Part shown: positions 22,595-25,771 of the stretch, piece by piece | Layout: each line of letters opens with the position of its first letter | How positions within the stretch are numbered: the stretch's first letter is position 1 | DNA from: Agromyces sp. | Lineage (GTDB): Bacteria > Actinomycetota > Actinomycetes > Actinomycetales > Microbacteriaceae | DNA length: 36,103 nucleotides | Assembly (NCBI GenBank): GCA_031178045.1 | Contig: JAPSJT010000010.1 | Span: forward strand, 1 to 36,103 | Direction of reading: 5' to 3' | Made by a program: the position numbers and the translations under genes | The notes under the pieces: model-generated | What the model was told of the DNA's origin: nothing | Databases searched by the model: none | Seen by the model: the letters and a program-made list of their open reading frames with translations, nothing else

Positions 22595-23572
22595 CTACGC
22601 CGCGCCGTCGAACATGCTCGTGACGGAGCCGTCCTCGAAGACCTCGTGGATGGCACGGGCGAGGAGCGGTGCGATCGGCAGCACGGTCAGGCGGTCCCAG
22701 CGCTTCTCGGCGGGGACCGGGAGGGTGTCGGTGACGACGACGGAGTCGATGAAGTCGGACTGGAGGATCTCGGTCGCCGGGTTCGAGAACACGGCGTGGG
22801 TCGCGGCGACGACGACGCCGATCGCGCCGTTCGCCTTGAGCGCCTCAGCGGCCTTCACGATCGTGCGGCCGGTGTCGATGAGGTCGTCGACGAGCAGGCA
22901 GACGCGGCCGTCCACGTCGCCGACGATCTCGTGCACCGAGACCTGGTTCGGCACGAGCGGGTCGCGGCGTTTGTGGATGATCGCGAGCGGTGCGCCGAGC
23001 TTGTCGCTCCAGATGTCGGCGACGCGCACCCGCCCCATGTCGGGCGAGACGACGGTGAGCGTCGCCGGGTCGAGCTGCTCGCGGAAGTGCTCGAGCAGTA
23101 CGGGCATCGCGAAGAGGTGATCGACCGGGCCGTCGAAGAAGCCCTGGATCTGCGCCGCGTGCAGGTCGATGGACATGATGCGATCGGCGCCGGCCGCCTT
23201 GTAGAGGTCGGCGACGAGGCGCGCGGAGATGGGCTCGCGACCGCGGCCCTTCTTGTCTTGGCGGGCGTACGGGTAGAACGGGGAGACCACGGTGATGCGC
23301 TTGGCCGATGCGCGCTTCAGCGCGTCGACCATGATGAGCTGCTCCATGAGCCACTCGTTGATCGGCGAGGCGTGGGACTGGATCACGAACGCGTCGGTGC
23401 CGCGCACGCTCTCGTCGAAGCGCGCGTAGAGCTCGCCGTTCGCGAACGTGCGCGCGTCGGTGGGCATCAGCTCGGTGCCGAGCTCGTCGGCGATCTGCTG
23501 GGCGAGCTCTGGGTGGGCGCGCCCCGAGACGAGCACGAGGCGCTTCGATCCGGTGGTCTCGATTCCCGACAT
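22595..23572 (-). CDS. prs: Ribose-phosphate pyrophosphokinase
   Basis: KRLVLVSGRAHPELAQQIADELGTELMPTDARTFANGELYARF, YPYARQDKKGRGREPISARLVADL, CLLVDDLIDTGRTIVKAAEAL; SD GGAGAGGA. Confidence 0.96.
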   Translation of the reverse strand: MSGIETTGSKRLVLVSGRAHPELAQQIADELGTELMPTDARTFANGELYARFDESVRGTDAFVIQSHASPINEWLMEQLIMVDALKRASAKRITVVSPFYPYARQDKKGRGREPISARLVADLYKAAGADRIMSIDLHAAQIQGFFDGPVDHLFAMPVLLEHFREQLDPATLTVVSPDMGRVRVADIWSDKLGAPLAIIHKRRDPLVPNQVSVHEIVGDVDGRVCLLVDDLIDTGRTIVKAAEALKANGAIGVVVAATHAVFSNPATEILQSDFIDSVVVTDTLPVPAEKRWDRLTVLPIAPLLARAIHEVFEDGSVTSMFDGAA

Positions 23573-23607
23573 GTGGTGTGTCCTCTCCACCCGCGTGAGC
23601 CGGTGCG

Positions 23608-25065
23608 TCAGTCGGCGGCTGCGTCGATCGATGCCGAGCCGGATGCCTCGCCGGCGGCCTCGGCGGCTCGGGCCGCTGCGGTGCCGGGTCGGTGCTTCTG
23701 GACCCATCCCTCGATGTTGCGTTGGGGTGCCACGTTCACGGCGAGGGCGCCCGCGGGAACATCTTTGCGAACGACGGTGCCGGCGGCCGTGTAGACCCCG
23801 TCGCCAATCCTAACGGGCGCGACGAACACCCCGTGCGACCCCGTGCGCACGTGCGAGCCGACCTCGGAGTGATGCTTCCGCACGCCGTCGTAGTTGGCGA
23901 AGATCGAGCCCGCCCCGATGTTCGAGTGCTCGCCGACCGTGGCGTCGCCGATGTACGAGAGGTGGGGCACCTTGCTGCCCTCGCCGATCGTCGCGTTCTT
24001 CGACTCCACGAAGGCGCCGATCTTGCCGTCGCTGCCGAGCACAGTGCCGGGCCGCAGATACGAGAAGGGGCCGACGGATGCCCCATCGCCGATCACCGAC
24101 AGCGTGGCATCCGTGCGCTTCACCTCGGCGTTCGCGCCGACCTCGCAGTCGACGAGCGTCGTGTCGGGGCCGATCACGGCCCCCGCCGCGATGACGGTCG
24201 CGCCCTTCAGCTGCGTGCCGGGCCGGATCGTGACATCGGGCTCGAGCTTCACGTCGAGGTCGATCCACGTCGTGGCGGGGTCTTCGATCGTCACGCCGTT
24301 CAACTGCCAGCCGCGCACGATGAGCGCGTTCAGCCGGGCGGCCGTCTCGGACAGCTGGGCGCGATCGTTGATGCCGGCGACGAGCCAGGGCTCGCTCACG
24401 GGCACGGCCTCGACCTCGGAACCCGCTTCGCGGAGCAGCTGGATGACATCGGTGAGGTACTTCTCGCCCTGCGCGTTGTCGGTCGTGAGGTTCGCGAGGT
24501 GGTCGCGCAGCGCTCCGACGCCGAACGCGTAGATGCCCGCGTTGATCTCGTCGATCGCCCGCTCGTCGTCGCTGGCGTCCTTCTGCTCGACGATGCGGTC
24601 GAAGGCGCCGTTCGCGTCGCGCACGACCCGCCCGTAGCCGTTCGGGTCGTCGTAGCGTGCCGAGAGCACGGAGGCGTGCGCGGCACGGCCGCGGTGGCGT
24701 TCGAGGAAGGCGGCGAGCGTGTCGGCGTCGAGGAGCGGCACGTCGCCGTTCAGCACGAGCACCTCGCCGTCGAAGTCATCGGGCAGGGCGGCGATCGCCT
24801 GCTCGACCGCTCGACCGGTGCCCGGGATCTCGTCCTGGTCGACGACCACGGTGCCGGGGAGCACCGACTCGACGGCCGCGGCGACCTGGTCGCGCTCGTG
24901 ACGCACGACGGCGATGACGTGCGCCGCATCGAGCGCCCGCGCCGTGCGCAGCACGTGCGCGACGATCGGCGAGCCGGCGAGGGGGTGCAGGAGCTTCGGG
25001 GTGGCCGATCTCATGCGGGTGCCCTGGCCGGCGGCGAGCACGATGATGGCGAGTTGCTGGTCCAT
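23608..25065 (-). CDS. glmU: Bifunctional UDP-N-acetylglucosamine pyrophosphorylase / glucosamine-1-phosphate N-acetyltransferase
   Basis: LAIIVLAAGQGTRMRSATPKLLHPLAG; left-handed beta-helix hexapeptides; NYDGVRKHHSEVGSHVRTGSHGVFVAPVRIGDG. Confidence 0.96.
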   Translation of the reverse strand: MDQQLAIIVLAAGQGTRMRSATPKLLHPLAGSPIVAHVLRTARALDAAHVIAVVRHERDQVAAAVESVLPGTVVVDQDEIPGTGRAVEQAIAALPDDFDGEVLVLNGDVPLLDADTLAAFLERHRGRAAHASVLSARYDDPNGYGRVVRDANGAFDRIVEQKDASDDERAIDEINAGIYAFGVGALRDHLANLTTDNAQGEKYLTDVIQLLREAGSEVEAVPVSEPWLVAGINDRAQLSETAARLNALIVRGWQLNGVTIEDPATTWIDLDVKLEPDVTIRPGTQLKGATVIAAGAVIGPDTTLVDCEVGANAEVKRTDATLSVIGDGASVGPFSYLRPGTVLGSDGKIGAFVESKNATIGEGSKVPHLSYIGDATVGEHSNIGAGSIFANYDGVRKHHSEVGSHVRTGSHGVFVAPVRIGDGVYTAAGTVVRKDVPAGALAVNVAPQRNIEGWVQKHRPGTAAARAAEAAGEASGSASIDAAAD

Positions 25066-25066
25066 G

Positions 25067-25138
25067 CTCCGCCACCAGGATTCGAACCTGGTCCTCACAG
25101 CTCCAAAGGCTGTCGTGCTGCCGTTACACCATGGCGGA
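25067..25138 (-). tRNA. tRNA-Gln(UUG)
   Basis: TCCGCCATGGTGTAACGGCAGCACGACAGCCTTTGGAGCTGTGAGGACCAGGTTCGAATCCTGGTGGCGGAG; acceptor TCCGCCA/TGGCGGA, anticodon loop CUUUGGA, T arm CCAGG-TTCGAAT-CCTGG; no encoded CCA. Confidence 0.95.
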
Positions 25139-25241
25139 CCGCGCGGACGATCGCCCGGCGCGCATCAAGTCTGCCATGGCCGCCGGGCGCGGTGCGGCGG
25201 CATCCGCTCGCCCGCACCCCCCACGCTGCGCTCTCGAGAGG

Positions 25242-25270: not shown

Positions 25271-25279
25271 AATGAGCGG

Positions 25280-25771
25280 GTGGCGGATACTGACGAGGTC
25301 GACCGGATCGTACGCGATTGGGAGCGCGAGCGGCCCGACCTCGACTTCGCACCCCTGCAGGTGCTCTCGCGAGTGGCGCGGCTCTCCAAGCACCTCGACC
25401 GGGCGCGCCGTCAGGCCTTCGCCCGCTCGGAGCTCGAGGCATCCGAGTTCGACGTGCTGTCGGCGCTGCGGCGGGCGGGCGCTCCCTACCGACTCTCCCC
25501 CAAGCAGCTCCTGCAGCAGACGCTCGTCTCGAGCGGCACCATGACCAACCGCATCGACCGACTGGTCGAGCGAGGGCTCGTGACGCGGCAGACCGACCCG
25601 AACGACGGTCGCGGCATCCTGGTCGAGATGAGCCCCGCCGGACTCACTCGAGTGGATGCCGCGATCACCCGCCTCGTCGACGCGGAGTCGGAGCTGCTCG
25701 AGGGGCTTCCGGCCGCAGAGCAGAAGCGGCTCGCCGCACTGCTGCGAAAGCTCAGCCTCGGGTTCGACTGA
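25280..25771 (+). CDS. MarR family transcriptional regulator
   Basis: GTG start; FDVLSALRRAGAPYRLSPKQLLQQTLVSSGTMTNRIDRLVERGLVTRQTDPNDGRGILVEMSPAG winged-HTH. Confidence 0.92.
   Translation: MADTDEVDRIVRDWERERPDLDFAPLQVLSRVARLSKHLDRARRQAFARSELEASEFDVLSALRRAGAPYRLSPKQLLQQTLVSSGTMTNRIDRLVERGLVTRQTDPNDGRGILVEMSPAGLTRVDAAITRLVDAESELLEGLPAAEQKRLAALLRKLSLGFD

Follow-up and report, generated by a model that had tools for sequence, protein, structure and literature searches.

A tRNA-Gln gene abutting the start codon of glmU in Agromyces: a possible bacterial counterpart of mitochondrial tRNA punctuation

How is a gene expressed when its start codon lies directly behind a tRNA? The question is raised by a stretch of DNA of 36,103 nucleotides from Agromyces sp., an actinobacterium of soil (contig JAPSJT010000010.1 of assembly GCA_031178045.1), which is referred to here as the window. 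On its minus strand, the gene for tRNA-Gln directly abuts the coding sequence of glmU, which is essential and serves cell-wall synthesis. The arrangement is of the kind known from tRNA punctuation in animal mitochondria. A preliminary description of the locus proposed that the expression of glmU is tied to the maturation of the tRNA. To judge from the genomes compared, the junction is best read as a bacterial equivalent of this mitochondrial mechanism, with a probability of roughly 0.6.

Anatomy of the junction

The tRNA-Gln(UUG) gene occupies positions 25067..25138 on the minus strand and comprises 72 nt, including the discriminator G73 at 25067. It is matched by the Rfam model RF00005 with 60.9 bits (25138..25067, minus strand), and ARAGORN reports a tRNA-Gln with the anticodon ttg at 25138..25067 plus the C at 25066. 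This C, position 74 of the tRNA, is the sole encoded residue of the CCA end. The glmU gene (23608..25065, minus strand; 485 codons plus stop) begins with the ATG at 25065-25063, and the protein read from this codon is identified as GlmU by NF010932 with 718.9 bits. On the minus strand the letters of the junction are ...CCTGGTGGCGGAG-C-ATGGACCAG..., that is, G73-C-ATG. The preliminary description had placed the three elements at the same positions and had noted that no CCA is encoded; both statements are confirmed. The anatomy of the junction is well established, and evolution has maintained it.

Downstream, glmU is followed by prs, which codes for ribose-phosphate diphosphokinase (22598..23575, minus strand; NF002844, 564.1 bits). 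The two genes probably form one transcription unit. Upstream of the tRNA, the space left for a promoter of tRNA and glmU is about 140 bp, bounded by a divergent gene for a MarR-family regulator (25277..25771, plus strand), for which the MarR-family matches are weak and all below the curated cut-offs. A search of a plasmid collection with the junction sequence returned nothing informative.

A locus is called fused here if the start codon of glmU follows C74 without a gap. No start other than the abutting ATG is shared by every fused relative. A GTG at +24 (codon 9) was rejected as the start, being absent from loci L002, L006, L007 and L069, as was a GTG at -33, inside the tRNA, which L003 and L033 lack. 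Of the 38 fused loci, 14 have no in-frame ATG, GTG or TTG anywhere inside the tRNA. The fused starts consist of 34 ATG and 4 GTG codons; all 38 are RTG, as are the start codons of leaderless mRNAs.

The length of the gap after C74 was determined for 97 tRNA-linked glmU loci. It is zero in 38, 12-30 nt in 16 and more than 30 nt in 43, and a gap of 1-11 nt occurs in none of the 97 under the rule that, of several possible starts, the one closest to the conserved motif but at least 7 codons ahead of it is used; alternative in-frame starts at 2-11 exist in a few loci. The matches of a pattern search in the family agree with this picture. C74 itself is present in 97 of 97 loci, a count without evidential weight since this residue was built into the search pattern. 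The leader of glmU is either absent or long enough to hold a Shine-Dalgarno (SD) sequence.

Upstream of tRNA-Gln lies a conserved promoter-like motif, TGGCAGACTTGA, at 25165..25176 on the minus strand. In the form TGGCA[GA]ACT[TG]GA it precedes the tRNA in the fused loci inspected, among them those of Agromyces and Microbacterium. Its putative hexamer CAGACT (25173-25168) is unlike TANNNT and could represent a form of the extended -10 element particular to Microbacteriaceae. No other conserved promoter-like motif was found, and a TANNNT hexamer within 14 nt upstream of the glmU start occurs in none of the 38 fused loci. As far as such motifs indicate, glmU appears to depend on the promoter of the tRNA.

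A different arrangement is seen in loci where glmU has no tRNA upstream (L061, L064, L068 from Curtobacterium, L058 and L062), which have a -10-like hexamer just before the ATG. Hexamers resembling TANNNT are found a few nucleotides upstream of glmU in some loci that lack the adjacent tRNA or come from outgroups (for example L058, L156, L163, L168 and L173), which suggests that glmU is leaderless there by means of its own promoter. In the loci listed first, this kind of initiation would have followed once the link with the tRNA was lost.

The 3' end of the tRNA and the precursor

The preliminary description assumed that tRNase Z cleaves the precursor right after the discriminator, releasing an RNA that begins with C-AUG. 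Neither the enzyme nor the site is supported. Canonical RNase Z (TIGR02651) has no match in the genome of the window, which is about 90% complete, and no full-length match in 36 relatives from Agromyces.

With acceptor pairing used to locate the discriminator, the base at position 74 was recorded for the tRNA genes in four genomes: the window's own, a second Agromyces, one of the Microbacterium-like genus g85 and an order-level relative (window genome, G079, G106 and G434). C74 is encoded in 168 of 168 tRNA genes. This includes all 120 genes that lack an encoded CCA, in which the next base is variable (C in 25, T in 30, A in 31 and G in 34). This is the pattern that would result from a maturation that retains C74 and leaves CA to be supplied by the CCA-adding enzyme. 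A further actinobacterial sample (G506, G494, G521 and G535) has C74 in 34 of 35 CCA-less tRNAs, and on these counts the encoded C74 looks like a general actinobacterial feature. An actinobacterial CCA-adding enzyme is present (762 bits), and a protein of the RNase E/G family, a possible candidate for the nuclease that would cut after C74, is found in the genomes tested.

The pattern also fits published cuts between the two Cs, C74 and C75. In P. acnes, RNA-seq placed the cuts within CCA always between the Cs, and the species has no obvious tRNase Z (PMC3848588). In S. coelicolor, tRNA 3' cuts likewise fall between the Cs (PMC4681348). The tRNAs in both reports encode CCA, and those without it would be cut at the same place by extension. 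Absence of RNase Z is not required for C74 to be encoded: RNase Z is matched over nearly its full length in a genome of the genus g2 (G001; 246 bits), and in G434 an RNase Z-like gene is present while the CCA-less tRNA genes still encode C74.

The tRNA-Gln of the window is most likely cut after C74, a position predicted from these patterns that lies between 25066 and 25065 on the minus strand. With a cut at this site, the glmU mRNA would start exactly at AUG and not at C-AUG.

As the preliminary description correctly pointed out, any SD sequence of glmU would lie inside the tRNA. The window contains GGTGG in the 3' strand of the tRNA, with an SD duplex of -6.0 kcal/mol. Some fused loci outside Agromyces and Microbacterium, such as L108 and L094, have GGAGG 6 nt before the AUG (-9.3 kcal/mol). 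SD strength was rejected as a discriminator, since the duplex energies fail to separate fused from leadered loci in the expected direction. Position 66, which decides between GGAGG and GGTGG or GGCGG, is A in 10 of 38 fused loci versus 20 of 59 others.

The tRNA-Gln alone folds well in silico. With 40 nt from the start of glmU attached (25026-25138, minus strand), the acceptor stem is lost in the predicted fold of the naked precursor, and 4.2% of control sequences lose it as strongly. A conserved misfold of the precursor that acts as a switch was considered and rejected, because the glmU 5' sequences of species with a spacer also abolish the acceptor stem on the window's tRNA, so that the effect is not specific to fused loci. 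It results from complementarity with the conserved LAAG codons of GlmU.

Distribution of the fused state

The neighbourhood of glmU was compared in 80 loci from Microbacteriaceae, most of which have tRNA-Gln(ttg) upstream of the gene. The junction GGAGC^RTG is found in Agromyces, Microbacterium and Labedella. Spacing had been proposed beforehand as a check on the link between tRNA and glmU. It is constant in Agromyces and Microbacterium, save for A. cerinus, but not in the other genera of the family, where leaders range from 12 to about 200 nt and many contain SD-like GGAG or AGGA.

A pattern scan of 400 genomes of the family found an RTG directly after C74 in 31, from 10 genera. In nearly all of these the RTG is the in-frame start of glmU; two (L090 and L096) have an RTG without a matching gene and represent chance cases. 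The fused state occurs in all 8 genomes of the Microbacterium-like genus g85, in 5/5 of g2 and 4/4 of g34, and in 8 of the 10 genomes of g1, the genus of the window itself.

In another two of the 31 genomes the tRNA-Gln abuts, with zero gap, the start of a different ORF, and glmU is not adjacent to the tRNA. The ATG belongs to an aldo/keto-reductase-like ORF at L089 (G032) and to an ORF of about 110 codons at L091 (G113). For each genome, a zero-gap RTG at a junction of this type has a chance of about 1 in 32.

On a tree of GlmU, 15 of the 16 distinct loci in the Agromyces clade are fused (16 of 17 rows if L086 is included, which is the window's own genome fetched again and was left out). As in the other counts of fused loci, the loci are related and hence not independent. 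The sole exception in the clade is A. cerinus (L005), in which a spacer of 52 nt with an SD-like AGGA separates tRNA-Gln from glmU. This species represents a natural control, and its spacer means that the abutment of tRNA and glmU is dispensable. Another locus of the window's own genus, L085, is fused yet placed outside the Agromyces clade. Across this quick tree the fused label changes 8 times, gains and losses not being distinguishable, with at least 4 changes on starred, well-supported branches. In several lineages of Microbacteriaceae, namely the Agromyces clade, g85 and Labedella, all or almost all loci carry the junction.

The preliminary description also speculated on a connection between the glutamine tRNA and the nitrogen of UDP-GlcNAc, which derives from glutamine. 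The tRNA-Gln gene lies upstream of glmU across the phylum with widely varying spacing, which points to inherited synteny rather than a glutamine link.

Processing model, alternatives and significance

We infer co-transcription, the position of the cut, leaderless translation and any regulatory coupling in the following form. A single promoter before the tRNA would drive tRNA-Gln and glmU, with prs behind. RNase P would free the 5' end of the folded tRNA, and an endonuclease would free the 3' end. If the latter cuts after C74, it would leave a tRNA that needs just CA from the CCA-adding enzyme, together with an mRNA that opens with the A of the glmU AUG. This leaderless RTG mRNA would then be translated, as actinobacterial ribosomes do with such mRNAs. 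The proposed tie between glmU and tRNA maturation would survive in this form, by way of the tRNA's promoter and the leaderless mRNA that 3' processing would produce, although the enzyme and the cut site first suggested for it are not supported. A more specific version holds that an actinobacterial endonuclease cuts after the always-encoded C74, that several lineages have placed the AUG of glmU(-prs) at this site, and that expression is obligatorily coupled to tRNA maturation. This version is possible, but is put forward tentatively.

The main rival, which is unlikely, is that the unprocessed transcript is translated by means of an SD sequence in the unfolded 3' strand of the tRNA (about positions 64-68), so that tRNA and mRNA are alternative fates of one RNA. 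It can draw on the GGAGG of L108 and L094, on the weaker GGTGG of the window and on the loss of the acceptor stem in the thermodynamic fold. However, that loss comes from codons that are not special to fused loci, and position 66 is not shifted towards A in them. Initiation from such an SD would also work with 1-3 nt between C74 and the start, spacings that are never seen, and the exact zero gap is left unexplained. A cut after G73, by tRNase Z or some other nuclease, would give C-AUG with a leader of 1 nt. In its favour, textbooks assign CCA-less precursors to tRNase Z, and the match in G001 is nearly full-length. Since neither the window's genome nor its Agromyces relatives yielded a full-length match, since C74 is encoded in CCA-less genes even where an RNase Z-like gene is present, and since published cuts fall between the Cs, this alternative is improbable too.

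Two further explanations, which dispense with processing, have very little probability. One is a promoter inside the tRNA from which leaderless transcription of glmU would begin at the AUG. The hexamers before glmU in some relatives without an adjacent tRNA and in some outgroups give it a precedent, but TANNNT is absent from the 14 nt before each of the 38 fused starts, the tRNA itself is under sequence constraint, and the conserved promoter-like motif precedes it. The other, just as remote, is compact gene order without function, in which deletion let the start drift up to the tRNA, while read-through yields a leadered transcript on which glmU is initiated independently of an SD. An RTG is expected after C74 by chance in about 1 of 32 sequences, as in L090 and L096. 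Chance of this kind accounts poorly for an exact zero gap that recurs with none at 1-11 nt, or for its persistence over long times in Agromyces and the Microbacterium-like genus.

The tRNA punctuation reading, which is preferred here, has parallels in several known systems. In mitochondria, an mRNA with little or no leader receives its 5' end when the tRNA before it is excised from a polycistronic transcript, and the same is predicted here. The mitochondrial nuclease is ELAC2, a tRNase Z, whereas here the cut is predicted after C74 and the nuclease is probably not tRNase Z; the setting also differs, being a bacterial chromosome with a single tRNA and one operon. Leaderless mRNAs with an RTG at or near the 5' end are described from Mycobacterium, Propionibacterium/Cutibacterium and Streptomyces. 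In these, transcription initiates at the start codon, whereas tRNA maturation is predicted to leave a 5' monophosphate end at glmU. The between-C cuts of PMC3848588 and PMC4681348 share the position after C74, but concern CCA-encoding tRNAs and are not linked there to a downstream start codon. Finally, MazF, a stress toxin of E. coli, is an endonuclease that makes leaderless mRNAs by cleavage (as cited in PMC3848588); at glmU, constitutive tRNA maturation is proposed instead. No description of a processing link between tRNA and glmU was found in the open-access literature.

The published cuts between C74 and C75 have been without explanation, and the present comparison turns them into a testable rule, namely that these actinobacterial genomes encode C74 in essentially all tRNA genes. 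The junction of tRNA-Gln and glmU provides a natural reporter for finding the nuclease. If the proposed reading is true, this is a bacterial case in which tRNA processing, and not transcription initiation, makes the translatable 5' end of the mRNA for an essential enzyme, and the synthesis of the cell envelope would be coupled to tRNA maturation.
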